Positions 27,738 through 61,489 of a stretch of DNA of 64,000 nt are shown in pieces; the stretch's first letter is position 1, and each line of letters opens with the position of its first letter. Below the pieces are notes generated by a model. It saw only the letters and a program-made list of their open reading frames with translations. It did no database searches and was not told the DNA's origin. Source of the DNA: Symbiopectobacterium purcellii (GTDB lineage Bacteria > Pseudomonadota > Gammaproteobacteria > Enterobacterales > Enterobacteriaceae); contig NZ_CP081864.1 in the NCBI RefSeq assembly GCF_019797845.1, forward strand, positions 1,240,001 to 1,304,000, written 5' to 3'. Made by a program: the position numbers and the translations under genes.

Positions 27738-28391
27738 TTAAGTAAGCACGTCGGTCAGGGTGAACATCGGCTTTCCATCCTCACCGGAGTTGAGCTGGTT
27801 GTCAAACCCGCGCAGTCGATTGCACTGATCGGTGAATCCGGTTCGGGCAAATCAACGCTGCTGGGAATACTCGCTGGGCTGGATGACGGCAGTGAAGGTG
27901 ATGTCAAACTGCTCGGCGAATCGTTGGGGGCCCTGGATGAAGATGGGCGTGCTGCACTGCGTGCCCGCGATGTCGGATTTGTGTTTCAGGCATTTATGTT
28001 GGTGCCGACGCTGAATGCGTTGGAAAATGTGCATTTGCCTGCACTGCTACGCGGTGAAAGTGATGCACAAAGCCGTGCGCAGGCAGAACAGTTGTTGCGT
28101 CAATTGGGACTGGGCGAGCGTTTGCACCATTTGCCCGCGCAGCTATCCGGCGGTGAGCAACAGCGTGTTGCCATCGCGCGTGCCTTTAGCGGGCGGCCCA
28201 GAGTGCTGTTTGCGGATGAACCGACCGGCAATCTGGATCGCAAAACCGGCGAACGTATTGTGGATTTGTTGTTTTCTCTAAATCGTGATTACGCCACCAC
28301 GCTGATCCTGGTTACCCACGATGAGCAGTTAGCTGCACGCTGCGAACGGCGTTTGCGCCTGTTGGACGGCAAATTGCAGGAGGTGGCATGA
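27672..28391 (+). CDS. ybbA: ABC transporter ATP-binding protein YbbA
   Basis: MacB/LolD-type ATPase, 239 residues. Walker A GESGSGKST is at 54-62, signature LSGGEQQR at 158-165, and Walker B VLFADEPTG at 178-186 with Asp182/Glu183. Partner of the FtsX-like membrane protein YbbP; the start of ybbP overlaps its stop by 4 bp. Its start lies inside the 5' end of tesA on the other strand, an overlap also found in E. coli. Proposed roles (lipid or hydrophobic-compound export) are not proven. Confidence 0.95.
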   Translation: MSLNGVSSAATASAENILEVHHLSKHVGQGEHRLSILTGVELVVKPAQSIALIGESGSGKSTLLGILAGLDDGSEGDVKLLGESLGALDEDGRAALRARDVGFVFQAFMLVPTLNALENVHLPALLRGESDAQSRAQAEQLLRQLGLGERLHHLPAQLSGGEQQRVAIARAFSGRPRVLFADEPTGNLDRKTGERIVDLLFSLNRDYATTLILVTHDEQLAARCERRLRLLDGKLQEVA

Positions 28392-30816
28392 TCTGGCGCT
28401 GGTTTTGGCGGGAGTGGCGATCCCCGTCGCTGCTGATCGTGTGGCTAGCGTTAACGCTGGCGGTGGCGTGTGTGCTGGCGTTGGGCAATATCAGCGATCG
28501 CATGGAGAAAGGGCTAAGCCAGCAAAGCCGTGATTTTCTGGCGGGCGATCGCGTGCTGAGCGCTGCACGTCCGGTCGATGAAGATTGGTTGCAAACGGCA
28601 CAGCAACAAGGGTTGACGGTCAGTCGCCAGGTGTCATTCATGACCATGACCTATGCGGGCGAACAGGCCCAGTTGGCGCGCGTCAAGGCGGCGGACGATC
28701 GCTATCCGCTCTACGGCCAGCTCCAGACACGTCCGGAAGGGTTACATCCGGTGCCTGGCTCGGTATTGGTGGCTCCGCGACTGCTGGCATTACTGGGATT
28801 GAAGGTCGGGGATAACCTCGATGTTGGCGATACTACGCTGCGAATCGCCGGGGAACTGATTCAGGAGCCGGACGAAGGGTTTAATCCGTTTGATACCGCC
28901 CCGCGCGTGTTGATGAGCAGCGCCGATGTGGAAAAAACCGGTGCGATACAGCCGGGTGGGCGCATTACCTGGCGCTATATGTTTGCCGGTGATCAAGCGC
29001 GTATCACGCTGTTTGGCGATTTTATCAAACCGTTGCTGAAACCGGATCAGCGCTGGTATGGCATGGAAGACAGCGACGGGGCATTGAGTAAGTCTCTGCA
29101 ACGCTCGCAGCAGTTTTTACTGCTGTCGGCGTTGTTGACACTGCTGTTATCCGTTGCGGCGGTGGCCGTTGCCATGGGGCACTATTGCCGCAGCCGCTAC
29201 GATTTGGTGGCGGTACTCAAAACGCTGGGCGCGGACAAAGGTGCACTGCGGCGTTTGATTGTCGGGCAATGGGTGTCGGTGCTGGCGCTGGCTGGCGTGT
29301 GCGGCAGCCTGGTCGGGCTGGGTTTTGAAGCGATACTCACGCGTTTGTTAGCGCCGGTGCTGCCCACCGCGTTGCCTGCGGCAGGGCTGTGGCCGTGGGT
29401 ATGGGCATTGGGATCGCTGGTGGTGATTTCGCTGCTGGTGGGGCTACGTCCATATCGCCTGCTGCTGGCGACCCAGCCGCTGCGGGTGCTGCGTCAGGAT
29501 ATCACGGCGAACGTCTGGCCGCTGCGTTACTATCTGCCCGCCGTGGCGCTGATTGTGGTGGCCGGCTTGGCACTGCTCTCTGGCGGCGGCATGTTGCTGT
29601 GGGCGTTGCTCGGCGGCACGGCCGTGCTGGCGCTGTTGCTGGGCGTTGTAGGCTGGGGGGGCTGTTGGTGTTGCGTCGGCTGACGGTCAAGCATTTGCCG
29701 CTGCGTCTGGCGGTTAATCGACTGTTGCGTCAGCCGTGGTCCACCCTGAGCCAACTGGCGGCGTTTTCTCTGTCGTTTATGTTGCTGGCGTTGCTGCTGG
29801 TGATGCGCGGCGATCTGTTGGAGCGCTGGCAGCGTCAGTTGCCGCCGGAAAGCCCTAACTTTTTCTTGCTGAATATCGCGCCACCTCAGGCGGCACCACT
29901 GAAAACGTTCCTTGAACAGCACGCGGTGAAACCGGAAGCGTTTTATCCGATCATTCGTGCGCGCTTGACGGCGATTAACGGTCAGGTTGCGACCGAGCGT
30001 ATACACGAAAACGATCCGGGTGCTAATACCGTTAACCGCGAACTGAACCTGACGTGGATGGAGGGCTTACCCGATCACAACGTGCTGACGGCCGGGCAAG
30101 CGCCGAAAGCGGGGGAAGTCTCGATGGAAGCGAATGAGGCGCAGGAGATGGGGATCACGCTCGGCGATACCCTGACCTTCACCGGCGACACGCAGCCTTT
30201 TAGCGCCACGGTGACCAGCTTCCGTCGCGTGGATTGGGAGAGCCTGCGGCCGAACTTCTTCTTTATTTTCCCGCCCGGTGCGTTGGATGCACAGCCGCAA
30301 TCGCTGCTGACCAGTTTCCGCCACGACGGTGATGACAAACTTATCGTGCAGCTTAACCGTCAATTTCCCACGGTCAGTGTGCTGGATGTGGGCACGATGC
30401 TGCGCCAGATTGGTCAGGTATTGCAGCAGGTGAGTCGTGCGCTGGAAGTGATGGTGGTGCTGGTCTTGTTCTGCGGCATACTGCTGCTGTTGGCGCAAAT
30501 TCAGGTTGGCATGCGTCAGCGGCGTCAGGAGTTGATGGTGTATCGCACGCTGGGGGCCGGACGTCGCTTGCTGCGTGGCACCTTGTGGTGCGAGTTTGCT
30601 GCATTGGGGCTGATGTCGGGGGTAGCGGCCGCCATTGGCGCGGAAGTGGCGCTGTGGCTGTTACAACGCAAAGTGTTTGATTTCCCCTGGGAGCCTAATG
30701 TGGTGATGTGGGGGGCACTGCCACTCAGTGCCGCCTTGCTACTGTCGCTGTGCGGCGGTTGGCTGGGACTGCGGCTGTTAAGCGGTAAAGCGTTGTTTCG
30801 GCAATTCTCAGGGTAG
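28388..30816 (+). pseudogene. ybbP: FtsX-like ABC permease YbbP, split by a -1 frameshift
   Basis: Membrane partner of YbbA. The first frame (28388-29683, 431 residues) ends in an unrelated tail GGCWCCVG. The homologous protein resumes in another frame at LLVLRRLTVKHLPLRLAVNR and continues to FRQFSG at 30816. The break is at a run of seven G (29655-29661). Eight G would restore one reading frame of 809 residues, very near the 804 of E. coli YbbP. MacB/FtsX domains and about ten membrane segments are otherwise intact. It is either a sequencing indel, a real lesion, or a slippage site, since a -1 shift on the G run also restores the frame. Confidence 0.9.
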
Positions 30817-36362: not shown

Positions 36363-37399
36363 TAATTAATGACCACTGCGTCTCCGGCGTTAGCGGGTTG
36401 AATAACGCCAATTTTCCATGCGGTTTCACCCTGGCTAGTGAGGAATGCCACGGCTTCCTCTGCCTGTTCAGCAGGCAGTGCGATAATCATACCCACACCG
36501 CAGTTAAAAGTACGGTACATTTCGTGACGGCTGACGTTACCCGTCTGTTGCAGCCAGTTGAACACGGCGGGCCACTGCCAGCTGGATTCATCAATGTTGG
36601 CTTGCATGCCTTCCGGCAACACGCGCGGGATATTTTCCCAGAAACCGCCACCGGTCAGGTGAGCAATCGCGTGGACATCCACTTTTTCAATCAGCGCCAG
36701 AATAGATTTGACGTAGATTTTGGTCGGGGCCAGCAGATGATCGGCCAGCGATTTTCCTTCAAGCGTCGTCTGTTCCGGATCGGTTTGGCTTACTTCAAGA
36801 ATCTTACGTACCAGCGAATAGCCGTTAGAGTGTGGGCCACTGGCTGCCAGTGCGATCAGAGTATCACCTGCCTGCACCTTACTTCCGTCGATGATCTCTG
36901 ATTTTTCAACAACACCGACGCAAAAGCCCGCAACGTCGTAATCTTCACCGTGGTACATGCCGGGCATTTCAGCGGTTTCACCGCCGACCAGCGCACAGCC
37001 AGACTGCTTGCAGCCTTCGGCGATACCGGTGATCACGCTGGCGGCGGTATCGACATCCAGTTTCCCCGTGGCGTAGTAATCCAGAAAGAACAGCGGCTCG
37101 GCCCCTTGAACTACCAGGTCATTGACACACATGGCCACCAGATCGATACCGATGGTGTCGTGGCGTTTCAGAGCCATGGCAAGACGCAGCTTGGTGCCGA
37201 CCCCGTCAGTACCGGAAACCAGAACCGGTTCACGGTATTTTTGGGGCAAGGCGCACAGGGCACCGAAACCGCCCAGACCGCCCATCACTTCAGGACGGCG
37301 GGTTTGTTTCACTACGCCTTTAATACGGTCTACCAATGCGTTACCAGCATCAATATCCACGCCTGCGTCTTTGTAGCTAAGAGAGGTTTTGTCGGTCAC
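36362..37399 (-). CDS. purM: Phosphoribosylformylglycinamidine cyclo-ligase
   Basis: AIR synthetase, ATP-dependent closure of the imidazole ring in purine synthesis. 345 residues. Family segments: [57 protein letters not shown] and [16 protein letters not shown]. Heads purMN and is divergent from upp; a PurR box lies about 100 bp upstream. Confidence 0.98.
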
Positions 37400-37718: not shown

Positions 37719-38344
37719 ATGAAGGTCGTCGAGGTTAAACACCCGCTCGTCAAACATAAGCTTGGCCTGATGCGTGAAAACGATATAAGTACAAAACGCT
37801 TTCGTGAACTGGCATCCGAAGTCGGCAGCTTATTGACCTATGAAGCCACGGCCGATCTGGTCACTGAAAAAGTGACTATCGAGGGCTGGTGCGGTCCGGT
37901 GGAAGTCGATCAGATCAAAGGCAAAAGATTACCGTGGTGCCGATCCTGCGTGCCGGTCTGGGTATGATGGAAGGGGTACTGGAAAACGTACCGAGTGCGC
38001 GTATCAGCGTGGTGGGTATGTACCGCAATGAAGAGACGCTGGAGCCAGTGCCTTACTTCCAGAAGCTGGTCTCCAACATTGATGAACGTATGGCGCTGGT
38101 GGTGGATCCCATGCTGGCAACCGGTGGTTCGATGATTGCCACTATCGATCTGCTGAAGAAAGCGGGTTGCCAGAGCATCAAGGTATTGGTGCTGGTGGCG
38201 GCTCCGGAAGGGATTGCCGCGCTGGAAAAAGCGCACCCTGACGTTGAGCTGTATACCGCCTCGGTCGACAAAGGGCTCAACGAGCATGGCTACATCATGC
38301 CGGGTCTTGGTGACGCGGGCGATAAGCTCTTTGGTACTAAATAA
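37719..38344 (+). pseudogene. upp: Uracil phosphoribosyltransferase, frameshifted
   Basis: Converts uracil and PRPP to UMP. The frame opens correctly ([20 protein letters not shown]) but shifts after DQIKGK, giving an 82-residue product ending [12 protein letters not shown]. The remaining homology ([14 protein letters not shown] to GDKLFGTK) continues in another frame to 38344, including the PRPP loop DPMLATGGS. The lesion is in an A run at 37923-37926: four A where five would give an intact 208-residue protein, exactly the E. coli length. The predicted product lacks the catalytic half. Confidence 0.92.
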
Positions 38345-38352
38345 GCCGTATC

Positions 38353-38380
38353 AGCCGACTGAGTAAGTCGGCTTTTTTTT
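38353..38380 (+). terminator. Intrinsic terminator after upp
   Basis: Eight-bp stem AGCCGACT / AGTCGGCT, 5-nt loop, then eight T. It separates upp from uraA, so uraA probably needs read-through or its own promoter; a TATAAT at 38440-38445 is a candidate -10. Confidence 0.92.
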
Positions 38381-38555
38381 GCGCCGGTTTCGCGGTGCAA
38401 CGCGTATGACGGTTTTTCACCCATATTTCGCACGATTTTTATAATCAGCCTCGCTTCCCTACGCGGTGACGCGTGGGGGCGGCTGGGCTGTGATAACGAT
38501 GCTGGACAAACCGGCTAACCACAACATCAAGTGACTTTTACAGAGGATATAAACG

Positions 38556-39854
38556 ATGACTCGTCGCGCCATCGGGGTGAGTGAACGACCCCCCTTGCTA
38601 CAAACCATCCCGCTGAGCTTCCAGCACCTGTTTGCCATGTTCGGCGCGACGGTGTTGGTGCCGATTCTGTTCAAAATCAACCCTGCGACCGTGCTGTTGT
38701 TCAACGGCATTGGCACGTTGCTCTATCTGTTTATCTGTAAGGGCAAAATCCCGGCATATCTGGGCTCCAGCTTTGCTTTTATTTCTCCGGTACTGTTGCT
38801 GCTGCCGCTGGGTTATGAAGTGGCGCTGGGCGGCTTTATCATGTGCGGCGTGCTGTTTTGCGTGGTGGCGCTGATTGTGCAACGCGCTGGCACTGGCTGG
38901 CTGGATGTGATTTTTCCCCCCGCGGCGATGGGGGCGATTGTTGCGGTCATCGGTCTGGAATTGGCCGGGGTTGCCGCGGGCATGGCCGGTCTGCTGCCTG
39001 CGGACGGCGTGTCAGTGGATAGCAAAACCGTGATCATTTCGCTGGTGACCTTAGGCGTTACCGTGCTGGGCTCTGTGTTGTTCCGTGGTTTTCTGGCTAT
39101 CATTCCGATTCTGATCGGCGTGCTGGTGGGTTATGGCCTGTCGTTTGCCATGGGCGTGGTGGATTTCGCGCCTATCGCTCAAGCGCACTGGTTTGCTCTG
39201 CCGACCTTCTATTCGCCGCGTTTTGAATGGTTTGCCATTCTGACCATTCTGCCTGCTGCGCTGGTAGTGATTGCGAAGCACGTGGGTCACCTGGTGGTTA
39301 CTGCCAATATCGTGAAAAAAGATCTGATGCGCGATCCTGGCTTGCATCGCTCGATGTTTGCCAACGGTCTTTCTACCATGATCTCCGGTTTCTTCGGTTC
39401 TACGCCGAATACCACTTACGGCGAAAACATTGGTGTGCTGGCGATCACCAAGGTCTACAGCACCTGGGTGATCGGCGGTGCGGCAATACTGGCGATTCTG
39501 CTCTCCTGTGTGGGCAAACTGGCGGCTGCGATTCAGGCGGTGCCGGTGCCGGTCATGGGCGGCGTTTCTCTGCTGCTGTACGGGGTAATCGGTGCTTCCG
39601 GTATTCGTGTGCTTATCGAATCCAAAGTGGATTACAACAAGGCACAAAACCTGATTCTGACCTCGGTTATCCTGATCATCGGGGTGAGCGGAGCGAAAGT
39701 GCACCTGGGCGCTGCTGAATTGAAAGGCATGGCATTAGCCACCGTAGTGGGTATTGCCCTGAGCCTGCTGTTCGCACTGATCAACCGTTTCAGAAGCGAA
39801 GAAGTGGTGTTGGATGCCGAAGATGATGCCGAGGAGACCTCGCGCGCGTCATAA
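38556..39854 (+). CDS. uraA: Uracil:proton symporter UraA, with Lys at the uracil-binding Glu241 position
   Basis: NCS2-family uracil permease, 432 residues with 14 transmembrane segments, very close to E. coli UraA. In E. coli the uracil site uses Glu241 (AEHVGHL) and Glu290 (TTYGENIG). Here Glu290 is present, but codon 241 (39276-39278) is AAG, reading IAKHVGHL, a Glu to Lys change. His245 is retained. This should disturb substrate binding and proton coupling, so the permease is probably impaired although the frame is intact. It follows the broken upp gene. Confidence 0.96.
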   Translation: MTRRAIGVSERPPLLQTIPLSFQHLFAMFGATVLVPILFKINPATVLLFNGIGTLLYLFICKGKIPAYLGSSFAFISPVLLLLPLGYEVALGGFIMCGVLFCVVALIVQRAGTGWLDVIFPPAAMGAIVAVIGLELAGVAAGMAGLLPADGVSVDSKTVIISLVTLGVTVLGSVLFRGFLAIIPILIGVLVGYGLSFAMGVVDFAPIAQAHWFALPTFYSPRFEWFAILTILPAALVVIAKHVGHLVVTANIVKKDLMRDPGLHRSMFANGLSTMISGFFGSTPNTTYGENIGVLAITKVYSTWVIGGAAILAILLSCVGKLAAAIQAVPVPVMGGVSLLLYGVIGASGIRVLIESKVDYNKAQNLILTSVILIIGVSGAKVHLGAAELKGMALATVVGIALSLLFALINRFRSEEVVLDAEDDAEETSRAS

Positions 39855-39929: not shown

Positions 39930-41399
39930 ATGAAAAAAACAATATTGGCGTTGTTACTGGGTCTTTCGTGTTCTGCTTTTGCCCAAGAGGCTGATGACGC
40001 CGACAGGCTCTACGATCGCCTCGAACAGCAAGATAATACCGCGCTGACCGCTCTCACCGATTTGGCTAAACGTCAGGACCCTCATGCTCTCTCCCTACTG
40101 GGGTTTGTCTACGAGTTTGGCGTTTCCGTTCCCAAAAATATCCAACAGGCCATCGACTATTATCAGCAAGCGTGTGCGCTGGGTGGTGATTATGGTTGTT
40201 ATAACGCCGGGTATTTTTATCAATATGGCATCGGCGTGCCGCAGGATAACGCCCGGGCCAGCCAACTGCTGGAAAAGATTAATGCCGCAGATATTGATAT
40301 CGAAACGACCAAGTCGCTCGGGCACACCATTTATGAAGCCAAAGCCAAGGCTGAAACCGATGCAGAGATGCGCGCCCCGATCCTGAAATATGTTTCCCGC
40401 TATTTAAATACTGCCGATGACGAAACGCGTCGGATATTCAGCCGCCTCGGCTTGAGTAAAAGCGATACGTTACGGCTGGCAAAGCGTTGGGCACAGCAAG
40501 GCGATCCCAAAGTAAACTTCTACGTCGGCCATTTTTATAATTTTGGTTACTCCCCGATCAAAGAGAAAGACATCGAGGCGATGCGGTGGTTTCGCCGCGC
40601 CGCAGAGGGCGGAGAGCCGGACTCGCAGAATCTTCTTGGCCTGGCCTATCGCGAAGGTCGCTGGGGCGTCGATGCTAATGCGCAAGAGGCTGTCACCTGG
40701 TTTGAACGTGCCGCGCAGCAGGGCAATAAAGATGCCATGATCAATCTGGGAGAAATGTATTACACCGGTGAAGAGATTGACGTTGATTATGACAAGGCGC
40801 GAGCGCTGTTTACCCAGGCCTACGACAAAGGCGTATCGCGGGCGGCAAAATACCTCGCTTGGATCTATTACAACGGTCAGGGCGTGACCAGCGATTGCCA
40901 GAAGGCCTGGGAGTATCGTGAACGGGGGCGCACTGGCGAAACCAAAGTCAGCTATATGGCGCACTGCGTCAACGATAAGCGTGGGCGTGAAGAAAACCGC
41001 CAAACCTTGCCCGCCTTGGTGTTGAAAAACCAGTCGACCTTTCTCGGTGGCAACGGTGGCGCATTGAAATGTGAAAATCATTTTATCGTTGATACCAACA
41101 AACTTGCTGAAGTGGCCAACTTGCGCGTCGTCGTCACGCTAAAAAACCGCGAGGGTGCCAGCGGGCAATTCACGCTGGCGTTTGCCCCCTTTGGCATGAA
41201 CACCATGAACGAAACCCTGTACGGCAGGGAATACAGCTCCTTTCGTTCCGCCGAACTGGTTCCACAAAAAACCAAAGACTTTTGCCAGCCGGGTGACGTG
41301 ACATTCCAGATCGATTCCGCCACGGCGCGCATCAACGGACAGGAAAAAGATCTGCTGGCGACCGGGATTATCAAGCCCTATGTTCAACATGCCGGGTAA
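39930..41399 (+). CDS. Exported Sel1-repeat (TPR-like) protein
   Basis: 489 residues from the ATG at 39930, with an AAGGGA ribosome site. Signal peptide MKKTILALLLGLSCSAFA. The body has about six Sel1-like repeats, recognisable by alternating A..LG..Y..G and A..W...AA..G patterns (for example MRWFRRAAEGGEPDSQNLLG and INLGEMYYTGEEID). A C-terminal non-repeat domain (about 350-489) contains paired cysteines. Sel1 proteins usually mediate protein-protein contacts; the specific role is unknown. It lies between uraA and hda, where E. coli has no such gene. Confidence 0.8.
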   Translation: MKKTILALLLGLSCSAFAQEADDADRLYDRLEQQDNTALTALTDLAKRQDPHALSLLGFVYEFGVSVPKNIQQAIDYYQQACALGGDYGCYNAGYFYQYGIGVPQDNARASQLLEKINAADIDIETTKSLGHTIYEAKAKAETDAEMRAPILKYVSRYLNTADDETRRIFSRLGLSKSDTLRLAKRWAQQGDPKVNFYVGHFYNFGYSPIKEKDIEAMRWFRRAAEGGEPDSQNLLGLAYREGRWGVDANAQEAVTWFERAAQQGNKDAMINLGEMYYTGEEIDVDYDKARALFTQAYDKGVSRAAKYLAWIYYNGQGVTSDCQKAWEYRERGRTGETKVSYMAHCVNDKRGREENRQTLPALVLKNQSTFLGGNGGALKCENHFIVDTNKLAEVANLRVVVTLKNREGASGQFTLAFAPFGMNTMNETLYGREYSSFRSAELVPQKTKDFCQPGDVTFQIDSATARINGQEKDLLATGIIKPYVQHAG

Positions 41400-60166: not shown

Positions 60167-61489
60167 TTAAAGCGGGAACACACCAAAGATGACGCAGGCA
60201 AATGTCATGACGACACTGGCTGCCCAGAGCACGGGAATAGAGAATTTCTGGTGGTCGGCCAAATCGACGCCTGCCAGGCTGCACAGCAGGAACGTGGCTG
60301 GGGTCAACGGGCTGACGGGGAAACCGGTGGTCATCTGACCCAATACGGAGGCCTGTGCCACTTGAATGGCCGGGACGCCCAGCATTTCGCCGGTGTGAGC
60401 GATAACGGGCATGATGCCGAAGTAATAAGAGTCCGGGTCAAACACCAGGCTCAGCGGCATGGAGATGAGACCCACCACGAACGGAATGTGAGATGCCAGT
60501 GCTGGAGGAACGAAGCCGACGGCCGCTTCAGACATGGCTTTCAGCATACCGGCGCCACCCATGATGCCGGTGAAGGCACCTGCGGCGAACAGGATACTGG
60601 CCATCATCAGTGCTGCTTTGGCGTGCGCATTGATACGTGCTTTCTGCATTTCAACATTGGGATAGTTCACCATCAGTGCGACGGTCAGCGCGACCATAAA
60701 GGCCACGGTCGGCGAGATCTTGGTGAAGACCATGGTGCCAATCACGCACACTACCAGCGCGATGTTGATCCAGAACATGTGTGGACGACGCAGCGCTTTC
60801 TCTTCGTCAGTCAGTTCTTTTACGTGCTGTTGGGCATCGAACGACGCAGAGCTACCCGCCAGCGGGTTGCTACCCGACAGACCCAGGCGTTTCTCCTCTT
60901 TCTTACCCCAGTAGTAGCCCATCAGCACCATGAAGACCAGGCCACAAATCTGCGCAGGGATTAACGGGATAAACAGGTCGTGGGTAGATATGTTCAATGC
61001 CGCTGAGGCGCGGATCATCGGTCCGGTCCACGGCAGGAAGTTCACACCGGCGCTCAGGGCGGTGATACCTACCAGAATGCGTTTGTCCATGCCCAGCTTG
61101 TTAAACAGCGGTAGCATGGCTGGCACCGTGATCAGGAAGGTGACCGCACCGTTGCCATCCAGGTGTGCCAGCAGGGCCAATACCCCAGTACCGATAATGA
61201 TCCTTACCGGGCTGGTTCACACCATGCGCAAGATGCCGCGAATGATAGGATCAAACATGCCAGCGTCGGTAACGACGCCGAAAAAGCAGATGGCAAACAC
61301 AAACATGGCGGCCATCGGTGCCAGTTTGGTGATCCCGTCCACGACGTATTTTGCTGTGTCAGTACCGCTTCCTGCTAATAATGCTCCAGCAATCGGAATG
61401 ACAATCAATGCCACCAGCGGTGACATTCGTTTGGTCATGATGAAAAATAATAGGGTGGCAATGGTGAGCACCCCGATTAACGCTAACAT
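60167..61489 (-). pseudogene. CitMHS-family citrate/carboxylate transporter interrupted by in-frame TGA
   Basis: Transporter of the citrate-Mg2+:H+ (CitMHS) family with about 12 hydrophobic segments. Starts MLALIGVLTIATLLF at 61489 with a GAGGAG site. After codon 90 (GILRMV) a TGA at 61217-61219 stops translation, and the same frame continues TSPVRIIIGTGVLALLAHLDGNG to 60167, giving 440 codons in all, the family length. No frameshift is needed. GGA to TGA would explain it, since the family has Gly here. First gene of the unit divergent from the LysR gene. Confidence 0.88.

Follow-up and report, generated by a model that had tools for sequence, protein, structure and literature searches.

The uracil phosphoribosyltransferase gene upp and the neighbouring uracil permease gene uraA both carry lesions in the stretch of DNA analyzed here, a 64,000-nucleotide segment (G000:C1:1240001-1304000, hereafter the window) of a genome that consists of one contig of 4,942,431 bases (G000). 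Has this organism truly lost the ability to import uracil and convert it directly, and if so, did decay, selection or a sequencing artefact produce the damage? These questions were addressed by comparing the locus with four genomes of the same genus (G001, G002, G003 and G004), with outgroup loci and with a wider sample of the family. Features discussed in the text are collected in Table 1.

Table 1. Positions of the genes and sites considered in this study. Plain numbers refer to the window; entries that begin with G000 or L152 lie elsewhere in the genome.
Feature	Position	Strand	Description
ybbP, ABC transporter permease (809 aa in G004)	28388-30816	+	One-nucleotide deletion in a seven-G run near 29658, which splits the gene
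purM	36365-37399	-	Ala at position 76 of PurM
upp, 5' part	37719..37967	+	82-aa open frame with premature stop; N-terminal third of uracil phosphoribosyltransferase
upp, 3' part	37922..38344	+	Other frame; residues 69-208 (37922-38341)
A run in upp	37923..37926	+	Four As; one nucleotide short relative to four genus relatives
uraA, uracil permease, NCS2 family	38556..39854	+	432 aa, open; 794.5 bits against NF007995
uraA codon 241	39276..39278	+	AAG (Lys) replacing an otherwise invariant Glu
citMHS-type citrate:proton symporter	60167-61489	-	Nonsense change at codon 91 (of 440 residues); G002 and G004 have open copies
smdB, named multidrug ABC transporter	G000:C1:1195211-1196946		Outside window; eight-nucleotide insertion
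nei (endonuclease VIII)	G000:C1:1362745-1363795		Outside window; nonsense change at residue 136, within the part matched by the profile (from 88 on)
Cytosine permease, PucR-like regulator (assigned by eye), cytosine deaminase	L152:5350-9218 = G000:C1 ~3.695-3.699 Mb		All open

Lesions in upp and uraA

The upp gene is interrupted by a frameshift near codon 69 that puts the C-terminal two thirds of the coding region out of frame. It had been predicted from the sequence that upp is one nucleotide short in a run of As and is cut at 82 residues, and the open reading frames, the profile matches and the alignment with relatives all agree on this point. When compared with the Upp profile TIGR01091, the first frame corresponds to positions 1-69 and the second to positions 66-207. 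The two frames jointly cover the profile, but the single open frame over its full length that would be expected of a functional Upp is lacking. Residues 69-208 of the second piece are 99% identical to the Upp of G002, and this piece is spanned by a GTG-started open reading frame (37889-38344). At the site of the frameshift, a multiple alignment places an uninterrupted run of seven As in all four relatives, from which the window differs by one deletion and one further base difference. The intact run was originally expected to hold five As, and the relatives do not bear out this number. Slippage at a run of four As would be unlikely to rescue the gene. The window gene resembles Upp in that both of its pieces match the profile and it adjoins uraA as in the relatives and the outgroup loci, but it differs in being split, with a first frame that ends after 82 codons.

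The uraA gene is damaged in another manner. Its product exceeds the curated cut-off of the UraA profile NF007995 (477 bits) and matches positions 1-426 of 429, which indicates a full-length protein. Residues 1-425 align with E. coli UraA (3qe7), free of gaps over at least residues 1-423 and with the sole gap at the C-terminal end, and this alignment pairs Lys241 of the window with Glu241. The open frame and the alignment confirm the original reading of an in-frame AAG codon where E. coli UraA has Glu. The two proteins can be aligned over their full length, and the window retains Ser72, Phe73, His245, Gly289 and Glu290 of E. coli UraA, an NCS2 uracil:proton symporter (3qe7, 5xls, 8omz). In contrast, the glutamate at position 241 of the uracil site, called functionally essential in the available text of one study (PMC5539350), is Lys in the window.

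Glu is found at position 241 in all 120 of the homologue matches listed (among 7,995 over threshold) and in 80 of 80 outgroup loci. A separate tally, in which second NCS2 genes and mutually overlapping loci are included, counted 90 Glu against a single Lys, that of the window's own gene. Because Lys241 is the sole departure of the window from 135 columns that are invariant in the 120 listed homologues, it is not chance noise at a variable site. Codon 241 is GAA in all four relatives, rather than the GAG first expected, and the AAG of the window differs from it by two bases. An apparent Asn at this codon in G003 was rejected as an artefact of gapped alignment near uraA damage, since tblastn and the multiple alignment give Glu.

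In the available portions of two reports, E241A of E. coli UraA is classed as loss-of-function (PMC5539350), and a triple alanine mutant that includes E241A serves as a negative control (PMC11362169). No assay of Lys at this position was found in the accessible text of the cited papers. We infer that the truncated Upp product would be inactive and that Lys241 would abolish uracil transport by UraA.

Probable gene decay and possible sequencing error in the window genome

The level of background decay was estimated by comparing 344 kb of the window genome with 360 kb of G004, using frames of at least 100 codons. Among 306 G004 frames, 141 without a match, 16 that resemble non-coding sequence and three partial frames were dropped to leave 146 comparable frames, and 151 of 293 frames from the window genome remained after the same steps (123, 13 and six dropped, respectively). 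Twelve of the 146 were flagged as broken in the window genome, compared with four of 151 in the reverse direction; one of these four, ybbP, is the lesion of the window genome seen from the G004 side. Inspection of the eight flags that could be named left five clear lesions, which comprise nonsense changes (citMHS, nei), one-nucleotide frameshifts (upp, ybbP) and an eight-nucleotide insertion (smdB). Two candidates were dropped, namely ushA (stop at residue 4, before the profile start at 18) and ampG (stop at residue 495 of 496). The ambiguous pxpB, in which the stop at residue 43 comes just after the profile start at 41, and four short flagged frames (134, 111, 125 and 100 aa) were left out of the count.

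Within the window, where genes were tested with G002 frames of at least 80 codons (72 rows), three genes (ybbP, upp and citMHS) are broken out of 47 that are conserved. A fourth row, likewise broken in the window but open in G004, stems from a 95-aa frame that runs antisense to the start of upp, and was left out as spurious. Gene loss in the window genome is modest and well below that in G001 and G003, in which 19 of 44 and 7 of 17 window genes, respectively, were flagged by a coarse test that overflags some frames (as with ushA and ampG).

Two damaged neighbours therefore need no special cause, because five of 146 genes are clearly broken by several types of lesion. When extrapolated to an assumed 4,500 genes, this frequency yields approximately five adjacent pairs that are hit twice by chance. 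Moreover, uraA is not the only gene here with an odd replacement at a conserved site: the neighbouring purM carries D76A in a column where 62 of 62 outgroup loci have Asp. These observations run against the original argument that two hits in one pathway exceed chance.

Taken together, the data make it probable that the uracil salvage pair decayed recently, as part of an early, scattered loss of genes in an organism that probably belongs to Symbiopectobacterium. One of the two steps may have been lost first, leaving the other of little value and free to drift, or both may have been lost independently once uracil uptake was dispensable. The near-complete pseudogenes of Symbiopectobacterium endolongispinus, a recent endosymbiont from the same probable genus, are similar in that a near-full-length gene carries a small indel (PMC13345370, available text). 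However, 2,679 pseudogenes are given for that organism in the same text, whereas approximately 3% of the sampled comparable genes are clearly broken here. A search of the available literature found no paper that treats uracil phosphoribosyltransferase, pseudogenes, symbionts and salvage together.

A different possibility is that an error in assembly or base calling created the upp deletion, and perhaps Lys241, and that the living strain carries intact genes. Apart from the lesions, both genes are conserved, and the upp deletion falls in an A run just as the other private deletion within a gene (ybbP) falls in a G run. In addition, private one-nucleotide indels number five in 46,877 positions in the window compared with two in 46,973 in G004, and two of the five break genes (ybbP and upp), both in homopolymer runs. 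However, G001 has 16 such indels in 46,703 positions, which indicates that small indels are common in the genus, and the lesions in the other broken genes are nonsense changes and an eight-nucleotide insertion rather than homopolymer slips. Clustered miscalls were rejected as an explanation, since private substitutions lying 1-6 bases apart occur at 1.29-fold the uniform expectation in the window, which is no excess over the 1.51-fold seen in G004 (1.05-fold in G001). Substitutions are rarer than indels among residual sequencing errors, and Lys241 requires base substitutions, two of them from the codon of the relatives. This leaves room for error at upp and less at codon 241, and we consider error an unlikely explanation overall.

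Distribution among relatives and age of the lesions

A tree of UraA places the window protein with those of G001, G002 and G004, beside Brenneria and Pectobacterium (support of 99/94 for the joint group); no named Symbiopectobacterium was included. Among named matches to a less conserved neighbouring protein (39930-41396), the one with the best identity is a 312-aa protein of Symbiopectobacterium purcellii (86% identity, with 65% of the query covered). A Brenneria match of 69% identity covers 96% of the query, and being longer has the higher score. Other matches to this protein, at 99, 84, 82 and 73% identity, rank above both. On the strength of one gene tree and one neighbouring protein, Symbiopectobacterium is the likely genus.

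Among the genomes compared, the upp frameshift and Lys241 are private to the window genome. The comparison proposed alongside the original prediction, of upp length and UraA residue 241 across close relatives, gave a full-length upp and Glu241 in all four. Upp is full length and stop-free in these relatives and in 80 of 80 outgroup loci. In the family sample, 106 of 149 genomes have a upp match, of which 100 (counted by eye) are one uninterrupted, near-full-length match. Broken copies are found in three of the 106, namely the window genome, G031 (rated 49% complete) and G054 (87% complete), and three others have weak matches only (G012, G036 and G042). The remaining 43 genomes have no match, and the 20 of these that were listed are all 1.4 Mb or smaller.

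A frame change after residue 322 splits uraA in G001, and G003 lacks a stretch between residues 111 and 195 and has a frame change as well; including Lys241, uraA has been damaged in three different ways in three of the five genus genomes. Three different lesions could mean that uracil import has been lost repeatedly and adaptively in the genus, for example on entry into insect hosts. However, upp is open in both G001 and G003 despite their broken uraA genes. Furthermore, because these two genomes are decayed in general, with a probability of approximately 0.18 that any one gene is lost jointly by chance, the repeated loss of uraA is not significant by itself. Adaptive loss is a very improbable cause of the pattern.

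Branch-specific changes were defined as codons at which the window differs while G001, G002 and G004 agree. There are no replacement and 12 silent changes in upp (one silent change before the frameshift and 11 after it), and two replacement and 24 silent changes in uraA, a ratio that is not raised relative to the other comparable window genes jointly (81 replacement, 445 silent; p = 0.40). Normal constraint therefore acted on both genes along most of the branch, and the lesions look late. Relaxed selection, one of the causes offered in the original prediction, fits these data, in that the lesions are private, the rest of both genes is conserved and relatives are eroding. A raised replacement rate, the other expected sign of relaxed selection, is absent, as expected if the loss is very recent, and for this reason the case for relaxation of uraA rests on a single residue.

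Remaining pyrimidine routes and selective explanations

The window genome has udk, udp, pyrF, pyrB, pyrE and nupC genes that exceed curated cut-offs and have stop-free frames; the de novo genes sampled are pyrB, pyrE and pyrF. Genes for a codB-like cytosine permease (543 bits, cut-off 326) and a codA-like cytosine deaminase (597.5 bits, cut-off 483) are open and separated by one regulator-like frame. These two genes are open though the uracil they would yield should not be able to pass through Upp any more. The only other NCS2 match in the genome was rejected as a second uracil permease of the RutG type (71.7 bits, cut-off 758.65). Its best matches are to the NCS2 superfamily and, with 382 bits against a cut-off of 414 that it does not reach, to the xanthine permease subfamily. 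In the decayed G001, the pyrE match (G001:C10:46262-46588) covers 108 of 173 profile positions, and the de novo pathway of that organism may be damaged.

The two lesions have very probably put an end to uracil import through UraA and to the direct conversion of uracil by Upp, in accord with the original prediction of lost uracil uptake and salvage. The extension of that prediction to a complete loss of salvage is unsupported, because udp and udk are open, and uracil can also be turned into UMP by way of these two genes (PMC13328217, available text). UMP should still be formed by de novo synthesis and from uridine. Because the sampled de novo genes, udk, udp, the nucleoside transporters and the cytosine permease and deaminase are open, direct uracil salvage should be reduced and the pyrimidine supply should not.

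Selection by a toxic pyrimidine analogue was also proposed as the cause of the loss of upp and uraA; it could have acted within a host, on a plant or in the laboratory. According to the accessible text of an evolution study, six of eight lines that had evolved under a fluoropyrimidine in nutrient-poor medium carried an inactivated upp, and a single knockout of upp or uraA conferred resistance in such medium only (PMC7725501). Since one hit is enough for resistance by this account, the second is not predicted. The cytosine permease and cytosine deaminase genes are open and should generate uracil within the cell, which likewise speaks against such selection, as do the broken genes outside the uracil pathway, and the strain has no known exposure to a toxic pyrimidine analogue. 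Nothing found points to fluorouracil selection, and this account, which is without support of its own, is very improbable.

Least credible is the notion that Lys241 alters the substrate of UraA rather than killing the permease, for example toward an acidic pyrimidine, for although uraA is open with few replacement changes and keeps the 134 other invariant columns, including His245 and Glu290, a recent hit accounts for this conservation without a new function, Lys is found at 241 in none of the 120 homologues among the matches listed, and E241A abolishes E. coli UraA function (PMC5539350, available text). It is equally far-fetched that UraA now carries orotate or another anionic pyrimidine, usable by PyrE and PyrF, while the Upp branch closes; if true, this would be a natural one-residue reversal of substrate charge in an NCS2 transporter.

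The lesions look like a real, recent and ordinary loss of salvage, for which ordinary early gene decay is the likeliest cause, and knowledge of the Upp and UraA families is unchanged by this case. If this explanation is correct, UraA of the window offers a naturally occurring charge reversal at a binding residue, in a transporter for which structures have been solved. The locus would also provide a snapshot of the first steps in the loss of nucleotide salvage, with a pathway pair seen soon after breaking, in a group whose other members broke the importer by other lesions yet kept the enzyme.
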